Position numbers and translations under genes: made by a program
Assembly: GCA_017309115.1 (NCBI GenBank)
Contig: JAFLEF010000014.1
Span: 62,001-126,000, forward strand
Direction: 5' to 3'
Source of the DNA: Verrucomicrobiota bacterium
Lineage (GTDB): Bacteria > Verrucomicrobiota > Verrucomicrobiia > Limisphaerales > UBA9464
DNA: 64,000 nucleotides
Shown: positions 5,316-63,988 of the stretch, in pieces
How the letters are laid out: the number at the start of each line of letters is the position of its first letter
Position numbering within the stretch: the stretch's first letter is position 1
Notes under the pieces: model-generated
The model's database searches: none
Told to the model about the DNA's origin: nothing
The model's input: the letters and a program-made list of their open reading frames with translations, nothing else

Positions 5316-8300
5316 ATGACCGACGAGCGAATCATCGAACTGCAACGACTGTTGCCGCGCTGCCTTACCCGGGATTGGGTCCGGCTGGGGGCGAGGCTCG
5401 TCCGACTCATCCGGGATCGGCACCATCCGGATCGACACGACGACTTGCTCAATCGTTTGCTGCAGCAGGCCCGGGAATCCGCCGCCTTGCGGGAGGAACG
5501 CCAGGCGAGTGTGCCCCGCTGCACCTATCCTCCCGATCTGCCGATCACTGCCCGTCGGGACGAAATCGTGGCCGCCATTCGGGATCATCCCGTGGTGGTC
5601 ATCGCGGGCGAAACCGGTTCCGGCAAGACCACGCAGATTCCTAAAATGTGTCTGGAGGCGGGACTCGGCATTGAAGCCATGGTGGGTTGTACCCAACCCC
5701 GACGGGTCGCCGCACTTTCCATTTCGCAACGCATTGCCGAGGAATTGGGCGTCTCCTGGGGACGCGAAGTCGGCTGCAAGATTCGCTTCGATGACCGGTC
5801 GGGACCGGAGACCTACCTGAAGCTGATGACGGACGGCATTCTCCTGGCCGAGACCCAAGGGGATCCGCTGCTCACAGACTACAATGCGCTGATCATCGAT
5901 GAAGCCCACGAACGCAGCCTCAACATTGACTTCCTGCTCGGCTACTTGAAGGGGTTGTTGACGAAACGCCGCGATCTCAAGCTGATCATCACCTCCGCGA
6001 CGATTGATACCGGCGCCTTCTCCCGGGCCTTCGATAATGCCCCGGTGATTGAAGTCTCCGGACGGACCTTCCCCGTCGACGTCCAATACGAACCCGTTGA
6101 ATCCGGGAGCGACGGCGAAGACGGATCCCACCTCGAGGCGGCCGTAGCGGTCAGCGAACGAATTCTGGACGACTCCTCGCGCGGCGATCTGCTGATCTTT
6201 CTGCCCAGCGAGCGGGATATCCGGGAAGTAGCCGACCAACTCGAAGGACGGCGGGGACGCGAGGCCGAGGTCATTCCCCTCTTCGGGCGATTGAGTTCCG
6301 GCGATCAGCAACGGGTGTTCGCCCCCAGTGATCGCCGAAAGATCGTCGTCTCCACCAACATCGCCGAAACCTCCCTGACCATTCCGGGAATTCGGTTCGT
6401 CATCGACGCCGGTCTGGCGCGAATTAGCCGCTACAATCCCCGCACGCGCACGCGTCGACTGCCCATTGAGCCCGTTTCCCAGAGCAGCGCCAATCAACGC
6501 AAAGGACGCGCGGGACGCGTGGAAGCGGGCGTGTGTATCCGGCTCTACTCCGAAGAGGATTTTCTCGGCCGCCCCCCGCAAACCCAACCCGAGATTCAGC
6601 GGGCCAACCTCGCCGAGGTAATCCTGCGGATGAAGGCGTATCGGTTGGGCGAGATCGAAACCTTCCCGTTCCTCAACCCACCCAGCCCCGCCGCCATCAC
6701 TGCGGGATACACTCTCCTGAAGGAACTGGGCGCCCTGGACGCCGACGGCGAACTGACCCAACTCGGCCGAGATCTCGCCCGATTACCCATCGATCCGACC
6801 CTGGGACGAATGCTGCTGCAAGCGCGTCGGGAACACGCCACTCGGGAACTGCTGATCATCGCTTCGGGATTGAGCATTCAGGATCCACGGGAACGCCCAT
6901 CGGATCAGCAGGCCGCCGCGGATGCCGCTCATCGCCGACACTCCCATGGTCTATCCGATTTCCTCGGTTTGTTGAACCTCTGGAACTTCATTCAAGATCA
7001 ATGGACCACCCAGCGAACGCAGGGCCAACGTCGACGGTTCTGCCGCGAAAACTTCCTGTCCTATCTCCGCGTGCGGGAATGGCAGGATCTGGAATCCCAA
7101 CTTGAGGAAGCCCTGCATGATCTGATTGAGGATGAGGCGGCGGTCCCATCCGGATCGCGAGCGCCCCGATCATTGGGACCCACCACCCGACCTGGGGAGG
7201 CGGGATACGACGCCATCCACCGCTCCATTCTCGCTGGATTGCTGGGCCACATTGCCCGGTGGGAGGAGCGCAATGTCTACAAGTCCGCCGGAAACCGGCC
7301 GGTTCAACTCTTCCCCGGCTCTGCGCTCTTCGCCCGCACCGAACAAGTCCGCAAAGGGAAGCCCGACCGGGATCGTCCGGCACCTACTCCGAAGACTCAG
7401 CAGCCCGCCTGGGTCGTGGCGGGTGAAATGGTCGAGACCTCCCAACTATTTCTCCGCACGGTCGCCGCCATTGATCCGACCTGGATCCCGGTTCTCGCGC
7501 CCCACCTGGTCAAGATCACCCATCAGAACCCCCGCTGGGTTGTCTCCGCTGGTCAGGTGGTCATCGACGAAATCATCACGCTGCACGGCTTGGAGGTTCA
7601 GCGCCGCCGAGTCTCCTTTGGGAATCTCGATCCGGACGCCGCCACGCGACTGTTCATCCGCTCCGCCCTGGTGGAGGAGGAATTACTCACCCAGTCCCAG
7701 TCCAAATCCGAAGACGAGGAGGACGAGGATTTCAGCAAGTCGTCAGCCGTCCGAATGACCGTCCTGCCGCCTCAGTACCGATTCCTGGAGCACAATCGGC
7801 AGCAGCGTCAGAAGATTGAAGCTTGGCAGACCCGGGTGCGGCACCGCTCGGTCGACGTCGATCAAGCCCTGTTCGACTTCTATTCCCAACGTTTGAGCCG
7901 GGTCTCGTCGGTGGCAGAACTGAACCGCTGGCTGCAATCCTCGGGTGGACCTGAAAAACTATGCGCGCAAGAATCCGAGCTCACCCCGGGTCGGGACCTT
8001 TCGTACGATCGCTCGGCCTTTCCGGAATCCATTGCCGTTGGCGGACAACCGGTGCCCTTGAGTTACGCCTACGCCCCTGGCGAAGAACATGACGGAGTCA
8101 CCGTTCGACTCCCCTTCGCCCTGGTCGACTCCATCTCGCCCGCACTATTGGATTGGTCGATTCCCGGACTGCGCGCCGGGCTGGTGGAAGAATGGCTACG
8201 GGCACTCCCCAAAGCGATCCGACGCCAACTCCAACCCATACCCCCGAAGGTTCAGGAAATGGTTCGGGAACTGGAACCCACCGGACCCACCCTGGGACAT

Positions 8301-60194: not shown

Positions 60195-60310
60195 TCGGAA
60201 ACCCCCTCGGCGAGTCCGGAAACATCATCGCCACCGCCTCCTCGGAGATCCGGTCGACGATACTCGGATATCGTCTTGCCGGAAGGAACTGTCCCCGCCT
60301 GACTGACCTG

Positions 60311-63217
60311 ATGTCGGAGCACCGGCCAAAGCCCTCGACACCGCCAGGACCCCAAGTCACGGCTGCGACACCGTTTCCTCGCCTCGTCCACGGCGAGTCC
60401 ACCGCCGCGGAAAAAATCTCACTCTTCCGTTCCCTCTTTCGCGGACGGGATGATGTGTACGCTCGACGGTTTGAAAGCCGGAAGACGGGAAGGTCCGGGT
60501 ATCTTCCGGCCTGCGGCAATGAATGGGTGCCTGGCATCTGCGAGAAGCCGCGCATCCGTTGCGCCGATTGTTCCCACCGTCGTCTGCTGCCCATCTCCGA
60601 CGAGGTGATCCGTTGGCACCTTTCCGGACGCGATCCCGCCGGGACTCCGTTCGTGTTGGGACTCTATCCGATGTTGCTCGACGAAACCTGCTTTCTGCTC
60701 GCCGTGGATCTCGACGGCGACGCCTGGCAGGACGATGCCCGGGCGTTTCAGCAGGCCTGCCGGTCACTGAACCTTCCGGTGGCCCTGGAACGCTCCCGGT
60801 CTGGTTGTGGAGGTCACTTTTGGTTTTTCTTCACGGAAGCCATCCCGGCCACGCTCGCCCGGAAGCTGGGTTCGACCCTGTTGACCCACGCCCTGAATGG
60901 CCGGCCCGAGATTGGGTTGCGGTCCTATGATCGTCTGTTCCCAAACCAGGACACCCTACCCAGTGGTGGGCTGGGAAATCTCATTGCGCTACCGCTGCAG
61001 CGGGAAGCCCGTCAGCGGGGTAACAGTGTGTTCCTCGATGAAAGCCTGCCCCCCTACCCCGACCAGTGGTCCTTCCTGTCGCAACTTCCCAAGCTGGACT
61101 ACTCCGTCGTCCAAGCGCTCGTTCGCGACGCCGAGAAGCACGACCAAGTCACGGGCATTCGGTGCGTCGCACCCGACTCCGGGGATGAATCACGTCCCTG
61201 GGCGCTAACTCCCTCGCGACGCCCCGTTCCAGAACCCATTTCCGTCCGCCTTCCTCCTTCCTTGGAGATCACCCTCAGCGACCAGATCTATTTTCGCAAA
61301 GCCGACCTGCCGGCCCCGTTGCGAAGCCGACTGATTCGAATCGCCGCGTTTCAGAATCCCGAATTCCACAAGGCCCAGTCCCTTCGCTTGTCGACCCACA
61401 ACCTTCCGCGAATCGTGGCCTGCGCTGAAGACTTCCCCGAACACCTCGGTTTACCTCGAGGCTGTCTCGGCGAAGTGAATGAGCTATTGAAGTCGCTCGG
61501 CATCCGCAGCGTGGTTCGAGATGAGCGATTCCCCGGACGTCCGTTGACCTGTGCCTTCGAAGGGGAGTTGCGGCCCGAGCAGAGGGAAGCCGCCCAAGCG
61601 CTCCTGAAACACGACACGGGAGTCCTGGCGGCGACGACTGCCTTCGGCAAGACCGTTGTTGCGGCTTGGCTCATCGCTGCCCGTCAGGTCAACACGTTGA
61701 TCCTCGTTCACCGACAGCAACTGATGGAACAATGGGTGGATCGCCTCAGCGCGTTTCTCGGGATTCCGCCCCAGGACATCGGTCGCCTGGGAGGGGGCCG
61801 GCGGCGGTTGAAGGGCACCATCGATGTCGCGCTGGTGCAGAGCCTGGTCCGCAAAGGAACGGTCAACGATGCCGTCGCCGACTATGGCCAACTGGTGGTG
61901 GACGAATGCCACCATCTCTCGGCACACAGTTTCGAACTGGTGGCGCGGCGCTCGAAAGCCAAGTACGTGGTCGGACTGTCCGCAACCCTCACCCGAAAAG
62001 ACGGGCATCATCCGATCATCCACATGCAGTGCGGTCCGATCCGTCATCGGGTCGATGCCCGCCAACAGGCCGCCGCCCGGCCCTTCACGCATCAGGTGAT
62101 TGTCCGTCCCACCGCTTTCCGCGCCCCCGAAGGCGGCAGTGGCAACCCTCGATCGGACTTTCAACGAATCTTCTCGGCCCTGGTCGTCGACGAGTTAAGG
62201 AACTCCCTCATATGCGACGATGTGCTGCACGCCGTCGAGCAAGGCCGTGCGATCCTGCTGCTCACCGAACGCACGGAGCATTTGGAATCGCTGGCCGCGA
62301 AGTTGATTCCGCGGGCTCCCCACGCCGTGGTCCTGCGCGGCGGATTGGGACGACGCGAGTTGCGAGACGCCCTCGAGCGCCTGGCCGCCGCACCACCGGA
62401 TCGACCGCCGCTGCTGCTGGCCACCGGGCGATTTGTTGGCGAGGGATTCGACCATTCCCGATTGGACACGCTCTTCGTGACTCTGCCCGTGTCCTGGCAG
62501 GGCACGATTGCCCAATACGTTGGCCGGCTTCACCGCCTTCACGAAGGCAAGCGCGAGGTTCGAGTCTATGATTATGCCGATCTCGAAGTCCCCATGCTCA
62601 GTCGGATGTTTGAGCGCCGTTGCCGGGGCTACGAGTCAGTCGGATACACCATTCTTCTTCCGGCCAGTGCCTTGCCCGGATGGCCGACTGAGGTGCCCCT
62701 GCCGGTGGACGCTTCGTGGAAACATGACTACGCGGCTAGCGTTCGACGCCTCATTCGTGACGGGGTGGATGCGCCCCTGGGCCGATTGTTTGTGGGAGCC
62801 GCCGCGACACCGGCTAGCTCTGCGGAAGGAGCCGGCCGAGCTCGCAGTACTGCCGAAGCCTTTTTGTTCCGCCGCCTGGAAACCCTGCCTCAAACCCGGG
62901 GAAAGTTTCAGCTCAACTCGACCCTTCCGCTCGTCTTCGACAATCGGGGCCGGATGGAAGTGGATTTCCTCGCGGAAGAGGCGCGACTGGTGGTGGAGAT
63001 CGACGGTCCCCAGCACCTGGGCGACCCCGACGCCTACCGACGTGACCGAAGGAAGGACGCGTTGTTGCAAGAGCACGGCTACCTGGTGCTGCGATTCCTG
63101 GCGGCCGACCTCAGCCGCGATCTGGACGCCACGCTGGACGCCCTCCTCCGCGCCCTTTCTAACCGGGAACGCGGACGGCGCCTGGGAAGCAACCTCCCCG
63201 GGCAAAGCCTCGGGTGA
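60311..63217 (+). CDS. TOTE-type archaeo-eukaryotic primase + SF2 helicase + DUF559-like nuclease fusion
   Basis: 968 residues from ATG 60311, cytosolic. Residues ~30-290 match the TOTE AEP primase: a Cys cluster (YLPACGNEW, ICEKPRIRCADC), catalytic AVDLDGD with Asp133/Asp135, RSRSGCGGHFWFFF with His169, and SYDRLFPNQDTLPSGGLGNLIALPLQ. A linker (FQNPEFHKAQSLRL) leads to the SF2 helicase: motif I TTAFGKT (Lys447), DECHH at 531-535, LSATLTRKDGHHP, LPVSWQGTIAQYVGRLHR (motif VI at 735-742). The C-terminus (~855-950) is a DUF559/Vsr-like nuclease: MEVDF (Asp885), VVEIDGPQH (Glu896, Asp898), DRRKDALLQEHGYLVLRFL. All three catalytic centres look intact. Proposed as a nucleic-acid-directed conflict enzyme; no partner genes adjoin it. 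Confidence 0.9.
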   Translation: MSEHRPKPSTPPGPQVTAATPFPRLVHGESTAAEKISLFRSLFRGRDDVYARRFESRKTGRSGYLPACGNEWVPGICEKPRIRCADCSHRRLLPISDEVIRWHLSGRDPAGTPFVLGLYPMLLDETCFLLAVDLDGDAWQDDARAFQQACRSLNLPVALERSRSGCGGHFWFFFTEAIPATLARKLGSTLLTHALNGRPEIGLRSYDRLFPNQDTLPSGGLGNLIALPLQREARQRGNSVFLDESLPPYPDQWSFLSQLPKLDYSVVQALVRDAEKHDQVTGIRCVAPDSGDESRPWALTPSRRPVPEPISVRLPPSLEITLSDQIYFRKADLPAPLRSRLIRIAAFQNPEFHKAQSLRLSTHNLPRIVACAEDFPEHLGLPRGCLGEVNELLKSLGIRSVVRDERFPGRPLTCAFEGELRPEQREAAQALLKHDTGVLAATTAFGKTVVAAWLIAARQVNTLILVHRQQLMEQWVDRLSAFLGIPPQDIGRLGGGRRRLKGTIDVALVQSLVRKGTVNDAVADYGQLVVDECHHLSAHSFELVARRSKAKYVVGLSATLTRKDGHHPIIHMQCGPIRHRVDARQQAAARPFTHQVIVRPTAFRAPEGGSGNPRSDFQRIFSALVVDELRNSLICDDVLHAVEQGRAILLLTERTEHLESLAAKLIPRAPHAVVLRGGLGRRELRDALERLAAAPPDRPPLLLATGRFVGEGFDHSRLDTLFVTLPVSWQGTIAQYVGRLHRLHEGKREVRVYDYADLEVPMLSRMFERRCRGYESVGYTILLPASALPGWPTEVPLPVDASWKHDYAASVRRLIRDGVDAPLGRLFVGAAATPASSAEGAGRARSTAEAFLFRRLETLPQTRGKFQLNSTLPLVFDNRGRMEVDFLAEEARLVVEIDGPQHLGDPDAYRRDRRKDALLQEHGYLVLRFLAADLSRDLDATLDALLRALSNRERGRRLGSNLPGQSLG

Positions 63218-63349
63218 GGCTCGAGCCTAGCTTCCGCTTCGCGTTCTCAGCACCAGGCGCGCTTGCCACACTGCACTGCCATCACTCGGGCTCGACGGTC
63301 GTCTCGGGATTCATGGTCACCGCTATCACCCCAGCGGGTTGGCAAGGAG

Positions 63350-63988
63350 TCACGAATGGGCCAGGACCGGCGGGCGCTGTTTTCGCAGGCCCTTCACCAA
63401 AGCCAACCCGGCGAGGGCCAGGCTGGCATGAAAAACGAGGGTGGCTGGCTCAGGAACCGCAGTCGCTTCCACCGACATTTGGAAGGGCTCATTGTCAAAG
63501 GGTTGCCAACCTCCACCCAGATTGTTTGCCCAGTTGCTGGCATACCCTTCCCCCAACCCGGTATTTGAATCCGTGTAGGCCCAACTGAATCCGCCCGAAT
63601 CAGCACTGAGCACCACCCAGTAGTTCACGCCGGCGTTGAGCGTAAGGCCCGGCGTGGTGAAGATGTTTTCGCCTCGCTCGGAGGTAATGGATCCCGGCGA
63701 AAGCAGGACTCCAATCTCGGTGCTCGGCGTCGACTCATCCCCACTATACAAAGCCAATCGAGCTCCCGTGCTGGAGCCACTCATCAGCAAGGTGATCGAC
63801 GTCAGCGTATGCGATACAGAAAGCGGCGCGATGCGTTGGGCCTGTTGGATTGATCCGCCAACAGTTCCTTCGGCAGAGGTAGTTGCTGACAGATTATCGT
63901 AAACAATCACCGCCCTGACTTCCGGGCCGATCAAGGTCAGGCAGGCCAGGATTCCAACGTTTCTCGAAGTTAGGCACACGCGAGTCAT
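63350..63988 (-). CDS. PEP-CTERM sorting-domain exoprotein, choice-of-anchor-like
   Basis: 212 residues with a signal peptide (VGILACLTLIGPEVRA). The body is beta-rich (DNLSATTSAEGTV, LTSITLLMSGSSTGARLALYSGDE, NYWVVLSADSGGFSWAYTDS), matching the choice-of-anchor exoprotein type. The C-terminus carries the tripartite sorting signal: VPEPATL, a hydrophobic helix (LALAGLALV) and a basic tail KGLRKQR. Such proteins are processed by an exosortase and often linked to exopolysaccharide. No exosortase gene is in this window. It lies downstream of the primase-helicase gene in convergent orientation (132 bp). The start is 12 bp from the window edge, so its promoter is not seen. Confidence 0.87.
   Translation of the reverse strand: MTRVCLTSRNVGILACLTLIGPEVRAVIVYDNLSATTSAEGTVGGSIQQAQRIAPLSVSHTLTSITLLMSGSSTGARLALYSGDESTPSTEIGVLLSPGSITSERGENIFTTPGLTLNAGVNYWVVLSADSGGFSWAYTDSNTGLGEGYASNWANNLGGGWQPFDNEPFQMSVEATAVPEPATLVFHASLALAGLALVKGLRKQRPPVLAHS

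Follow-up and report, generated by a model that had tools for sequence, protein, structure and literature searches.

A primase-helicase-nuclease fusion gene of a Verrucomicrobiota bacterium, read tentatively as a mobile conflict protein

What might a bacterium gain from a gene that joins a primase, a helicase and a nuclease in one chain? The question is raised by a gene at 60311-63217 of the 64,000-nt stretch of Verrucomicrobiota DNA analysed here, the whole of which we call the window. We read its product tentatively, and with slightly less than even confidence, as a conflict (defence) protein that is accessory and moves horizontally. A preliminary description made from the sequence had proposed such a role, and it stands by association only: nuclease-less relatives often follow toxin-antitoxin (TA) or defence-type genes, and any anti-phage activity is hypothetical. 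Below, G000 is the window's own genome, G001-G004 are the rest of its genus, and L-numbers denote homolog loci in other genomes.

One frame, three conserved enzymes

The gene is a single intact frame on the forward strand, with an ATG start and no internal stop. Hidden Markov model searches with Pfam recovered the archaeo-eukaryotic primase (AEP), the superfamily 2 (SF2) helicase and the DUF559 nuclease in the one frame, as first described, and the motif positions quoted for them are correct. The protein was found once in its own genome (G000:C18; genome search), where the gene is also the sole match to PF22548 (7.53 Mb, 111 contigs). Its parts are as follows.

60311..63217 (+): AEP primase, SF2 helicase and DUF559 nuclease fusion gene, 968 aa (open reading frame (ORF) plus Pfam, conservation, selection)
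60410..61114 (+): AEP (primase-polymerase) domain, residues 34-268 (PF22548, E 3e-92)
60512..60571 (+): four-cysteine zinc-knuckle-like motif C68, C77, C84, C87, intact in 36/38 of the fused homologs
60707-60715 (+): conserved AEP residues D133 and D135
60815-60817 (+): conserved AEP residue H169
61115..61555 (+): middle region between AEP and helicase (residues 269-415), in which the segments AAFQNPEF and LPRG are conserved (conserved columns)
61556..62680 (+): SF2 helicase, residues 416-790 (ResIII, DEAD and weak Helicase_C; XPB, RadD and UvsW structures)
within 61556..62680 (+): helicase motifs TTAFGKT (residues 442-448), DECHH (531-535) and QYVGRLHR (735-742)
62843..63190 (+): DUF559 (PD-(D/E)xK-type) nuclease, residues 845-960, with D885, E896 and D898 (PF04480, E 3e-12; match to 3hrl)
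60195..60310 (no strand): upstream spacer
63218..63352 (no strand): downstream spacer, ahead of a convergent ORF at 63353-63988 (-)

The fold identity of all three domains is assigned from sequence. In Pfam the AEP domain scores 308.8 bits against a cut-off of 27 and DUF559, at residues 881-949, 47 bits against 20.6; ResIII at 419-561 (E 1e-20) also lies above its cut-off, and Helicase_C at 638-743 is weak and under it (0.006). The solved helicases closest by sequence are XPB, RadD and UvsW. An AlphaFold2 model built on a 46-row alignment (mean pLDDT 82.5, pTM 0.68) has ordered modules at about 30-280, 315-780 and 850-960, joined by weak linkers near 281-310 and 781-845.

Conservation was assessed in 54 near-complete homologs, 38 with DUF559 and 16 without, the latter including the identical pair L081/L082 and two identical copies from L051. 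As had been claimed, the catalytic residues are all present: D133, H169, K447, D531, E532, D885, E896 and D898 are conserved in 38/38 fused homologs and D135 in 37/38, while those of the AEP and helicase are kept in all 16 nuclease-less homologs. The cysteine knuckle shows gaps in the two fused forms where it is incomplete, and its last three cysteines are each found in 7/16 nuclease-less forms; it may bind a metal ion. Per-domain dN/dS is 0.03-0.21 wherever it could be computed (11 pairs, one including the window gene), so each domain is under purifying selection and the gene encodes a maintained protein rather than a chance frame. The nuclease is retained, not vestigial.

Constant core and changing partners

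In a tree of 87 rows, built by a quick method with SH-aLRT support only, a single clade with 52 members (support 99) contains the 51 DUF559 forms, that of the window among them; its remaining member is L218, in which no nuclease was detected. This clade is nested among nuclease-less forms; the finding that the fused forms make up one clade among nuclease-less relatives is new in this analysis, as are the upstream partners and the tRNA-bounded units described below. Six forms with an extra tail form a separate clade, also with support 99. Among the five tails scanned with Pfam, PLDc_2 was matched in three (L121 at 3e-15; L226 and L125 under the cut-off) and not in L057 or L124, the sixth tail, L056, lying outside the scan. 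The rows nearest to the window gene are L021 (79% in the core), L069, L070 and L071. Because the midpoint root is arbitrary, the tree leaves gain versus loss of the nuclease without direction. A decay of nuclease-less forms through ‘internal stops’ was considered and dropped, as those alignments extend beyond the natural stop.

Upstream partners, defined as co-directional ORFs of at least 120 aa that end within the 400 nt preceding the aligned start, were collected in two sets of loci. The first comprises 104 unique homolog loci including the window's; an AEP start and sufficient flanking sequence were available for 31 nuclease-less and 51 fused ones, and a further nine nuclease-less loci, ending near a contig end, were put aside. 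A partner ORF was present at 20/31 and 29/51 loci, respectively. Together with five of the nine put aside, the nuclease-less scan covered 25 upstream genes: AbiEii (9), AlbA_2/Schlafen (2), Fic (2), and one each of RhuM, McrC, HipA, AAA_14/DUF4143 and PIN. The 29 fused loci gave at least three AAA_14/DUF4143 and at least three Y1 transposases, with the rest mostly metabolic or housekeeping families; there was no AbiEii among the best 25 of 54 families, and a weak AbiEii could be hidden among the others. TA- or defence-like genes total 18/25 (if no protein is counted twice) versus at least 3/29 (nominal p 4e-6).

The second set adds 54 loci, 40 of them from the order and 14 from the phylum that includes L051; after removal of one duplicate, two cut loci and four without a usable start or flank, 26 nuclease-less and 21 fused loci remained, L289 being counted as nuclease-less with uncertainty (999-codon frame). 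Its 19 nuclease-less upstream genes include 13 AbiEii and one RhuM, and its 11 fused ones two AbiEii (L279, L281), one GNAT and one ATPase_2/DUF234. Pooled, AbiEii lies upstream of 22/44 nuclease-less versus at least 2/40 fused forms (nominal Fisher p 3e-6). Several partners match PADLOC models named AbiEii or SoFic. The term single-gene, used in the preliminary description, holds for the window and fails for the family, in which many nuclease-less forms and a few fused ones (L041, L279, L281) have a partner gene. Separately, L290 (7393-7956), L292 (2225-2794) and L297 (1730-2302) have in common an ORF of some 190 aa that immediately precedes the AEP-helicase, the L297 copy having no Pfam match; it is possibly a new partner family.

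The constant part of the family is the AEP-helicase; the variable part can be a nuclease, a tail of PLD-like type or a partner of toxin type. On our best reading, a conflict module whose effectors can be exchanged would be expected to look like this, and the window gene would be its one-gene version. The AEP-helicase may be the shared unit, binding foreign DNA and remodelling it, most likely while that DNA replicates and offers forks or single-stranded gaps. A strand exposed by the helicase would then be primed or extended by the AEP, and the effector would act next: in the window protein the fused DUF559 nuclease would cut the DNA, and in other family members a partner of the AbiEii, Fic, HipA or PIN type would poison the cell.

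Distribution, window locus and tRNA-bounded units

PF22548 occurs in 84/321 genomes of the order, in 41/288 of a phylum sample (39 above cut-off) and in 19/398 sampled from the phylum of L051 (18 above cut-off), where near-complete frames of about 780-820 codons are too short for the nuclease. Within the genus it is present in G000 and G003 and missing from G001, G002 and G004, G002 matching the C-terminal part alone. Presence is patchy, and the immediate flanks are shared with 0/8 relatives compared, DNA similarity ending at the borders of the reading frame. The other DNA matches among these eight are short ones, 7.6 kb off, in L074 and L075. The gene is accessory, as had been suggested, and has changed places, by a route invisible at this locus.

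The window gene stands alone, without an operon partner. Upstream lies an exoprotein-like ORF of a repeat family matched in 17/24 genomes searched, its own included; it has ortholog-like matches in G003 and G004, and the stretches fetched around them carry no AEP gene. Neither the downstream convergent ORF (PEP-CTERM-like by eye) nor the gene two places upstream is matched in the other four genus genomes, and the neighbouring genes do not stay together across the genus. Composition is uninformative (GC 0.62-0.66 in the gene, 0.54-0.68 around it), and a promoter and terminator scan at the gene gave nothing useful. Farther off, at 32787-56841, the window holds by eye ordinary chromosomal genes, with large cytochrome-like and secreted proteins, esterases and a glycosidase-like gene.

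Several relatives sit in tRNA-bounded units. Within 3 kb of the gene, the loci of the first set have 17 tRNA genes, 14 of them facing it (p 0.013); nine lie within 600 bp (115 kb) versus four beyond 5 kb (417 kb; p 2e-6, the 600-bp distance having been picked after the data were seen, and one tRNA call inside the gene of L075 having been dropped). A second direct copy, of at least 19 nt, of part of the tRNA 3' half was found at 6/19 tRNA-bearing loci, against 2/342 control comparisons that reached 19 nt, and all six pairs bracket the homolog. In the second set bracketing copies were found for 2/5 tRNAs (L259, L293), which gives eight bracketed units, two of them fused forms.

L079: 30-nt tRNA 3'-end repeat, 4.4 kb; AbiEi, AbiEii, AEP-helicase
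L080: 21-nt repeat, 4.3 kb; AbiEi, AbiEii, AEP-helicase, with an integrase just outside
L051, 490-7599: 29-nt repeat; two tandem, 99% identical 3.5-kb units and three copies of the tRNA-Ser 3' end; each unit with a ribbon-helix-helix ORF, a PIN protein and an AEP-helicase
L041 (fused form): 31-nt repeat, 4.8 kb; DUF6036 nucleotidyltransferase, weakly MarR-like protein, fused gene
L208 (fused form): 26-nt repeat, 3.6 kb; GIY-YIG ORF, fused gene
L060: 19-nt repeat, larger, 7.6 kb; homolog a fragment without AEP, integrase inside
L259 (second set): 30-nt repeat, 5 kb; 447-aa ORF, AbiEii, AEP-helicase
L293 (second set): 17-nt repeat, larger, 8.7 kb; integrase-like ORF by eye

No integrase ORF lies inside six of these (L079, L080, L051, L041, L208 and L259). 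Seven other tRNA-flanked loci have no clear degenerate second copy, mismatches allowed, two of them beating the best of 60 shuffles by one mismatch, and the majority of loci have neither tRNA nor repeat. These units resemble tRNA-integrated islands and cis-mobilisable elements. The window copy differs and was rejected as such an element: neither the window nor the 13.2-kb locus contains a tRNA, and direct repeats across the gene's flanks do not exceed 10-11 nt, which is within shuffle range.

Plasmid copies have other neighbours. Alphaproteobacterial plasmid copies of the nuclease-less form lie beside three tyrosine recombinases (L064-L066), which we take to be RIT-like, and another (L067) beside TniQ/TniB/Mu-type transposase genes. 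Carriage as transposon cargo was set aside for the window copy, beside which no recombinase or transposase gene of these kinds was noticed.

Conflict, element replication, repair or CRISPR

We favour the conflict reading because the active sites of all three enzymes are nearly invariant and each domain is under purifying selection, because toxin-type genes are often upstream of nuclease-less forms and the C-terminus is swapped (DUF559, PLD-like or none), and because presence is patchy and one relative lies near a CRISPR array (L292). Several points weigh against it. Near the window copy, nothing stood out as a defence gene. The contrast between forms is weak in the second set (14/19 versus 4/11 for all TA-like genes, p 0.06), AAA_14/DUF4143 lies upstream of both (1/25 nuclease-less, at least 3/29 fused), and many loci within each set are close kin, so that the p-values are overstated. 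AbiE-type TA genes also stabilise mobile elements, according to PMC11062541, so an AbiEii partner is no proof of defence. The helicase half is common to many phage helicases, which an origin in replication would fit equally: phage SF2 helicases (phrog_16) match it together with some of the middle region (E 2e-42), beginning between residues 318 and 376. Nine of the 80 viral-contig loci listed also match through the AEP, and no phage record spans 80% of the protein.

The less probable but serious alternative of a replication or maintenance module of small integrative elements, with the window copy as a settled, stand-alone descendant, would have the AEP-helicase copy or remodel the excised element, a TA partner act as an addiction module, and the fused nuclease process element DNA or attack rivals. 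The eight bracketed units, the excess of second copies over controls and the nearness and orientation of the tRNAs speak for it; the many loci without tRNA or repeat, the window among them, the seven tRNA-flanked loci lacking a clear copy and the absence of an integrase ORF from six units, which may simply carry a defence gene, speak against. A bolder view, which we regard as unlikely, would make the AEP-helicase the hallmark of widespread minimal tRNA-3'-end integrative elements, mostly integrase-less and carrying one to three genes on some 3.5-5 kb; it would act both in copying the element and in attack on competitors, and the interchangeable warheads would be AbiEii, PIN, Fic, HipA or a RhuM partner, a PLD-like tail or a fused DUF559, with the window gene as a one-gene end point. 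Host DNA repair or replication restart, in which the AEP would reprime, the XPB/RadD-like helicase remodel forks and the nuclease trim, is distinctly improbable: the kinship with the repair enzymes XPB and RadD and with UvsW, the chromosomal location and purifying selection fit it, and it is opposed by the patchiness within the genus, the unshared flanks, the TA-type genes adjoining the nuclease-less branch and the split or broken copies in L016, L018, L044 and L077, some of which may be assembly errors.

A role as CRISPR-associated primase-polymerase (CAPP), aiding spacer acquisition in trans, is very improbable. The AEP matches the NCBIfam CAPP model NF040561 (E 1e-21; 77 bits, short of the cut-off of 200), the PADLOC Cas-associated PrimPol model (E 5e-86) and the profile of 7nqd/7nqf (E 1.6e-18), listed in the PDB as TPR_REGION proteins and presumably CAPP structures. 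A CRISPR-linked AEP-helicase type, CAPP_A type 3, is described in PMC8211822, with a homologous AEP core, then a helicase; in our model, too, these are separate ordered modules. The window protein differs by its C-terminal DUF559 nuclease, and a CRISPR link was rejected, with no Cas1 match in the genome (95% complete) and no array in the window. Array-like repeats occur in 2/233 loci scanned, and L292 alone looks genuine: four exact repeats and one degenerate repeat at 5820-6150, about 700 bp downstream of a nuclease-less AEP-helicase and near a contig end. At L230 (556-5259) a 20-nt word occurs 29 times at roughly 70-nt multiples and looks like coding-region repeats.

Judged by its domains, the window protein has the architecture of a non-CRISPR ‘CAPP-helicase’ and carries a fused nuclease in addition. 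Its placement in the TOTE group proved partly right: the AEP domain belongs to the family that bears the TOTE name in Pfam, and membership of a TOTE (TPR, OB, TBP, Effector; as given in PMC12458937) conflict system was rejected, because the 95% complete genome has no match to TBP (PF00352; 4/14 controls positive, all archaea) and a Pfam name is insufficient; the gene also stands alone. The AbiE type IV TA system, whose AbiEii precedes many nuclease-less relatives (with AbiEi in L079 and L080), is not beside the window gene. PADLOC 2.0 gave no whole-protein match to any named defence component: two PrimPol models match the AEP, and the other 12 matches are partial helicase or nuclease ones or very weak. 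Three sources were discarded on the portions seen: ‘Tote’ in PMC10893344 is a phage name, and PMC5512222 and PMC4158269 have primase terms in reference lists only. By title or abstract opening, with most subscription journals outside the search, no report of the DUF559 fusion, the AbiE-primase-helicase operon or the tRNA-bounded units was recognised.

AEP-helicase is the most prevalent architecture among non-CRISPR CAPP homologs and is typically found in mobile or transposable elements, as reported in PMC8211822, and no settled job for such fusions was found in the literature examined. Modular effectors and tRNA-bounded units make the function of these primases addressable.
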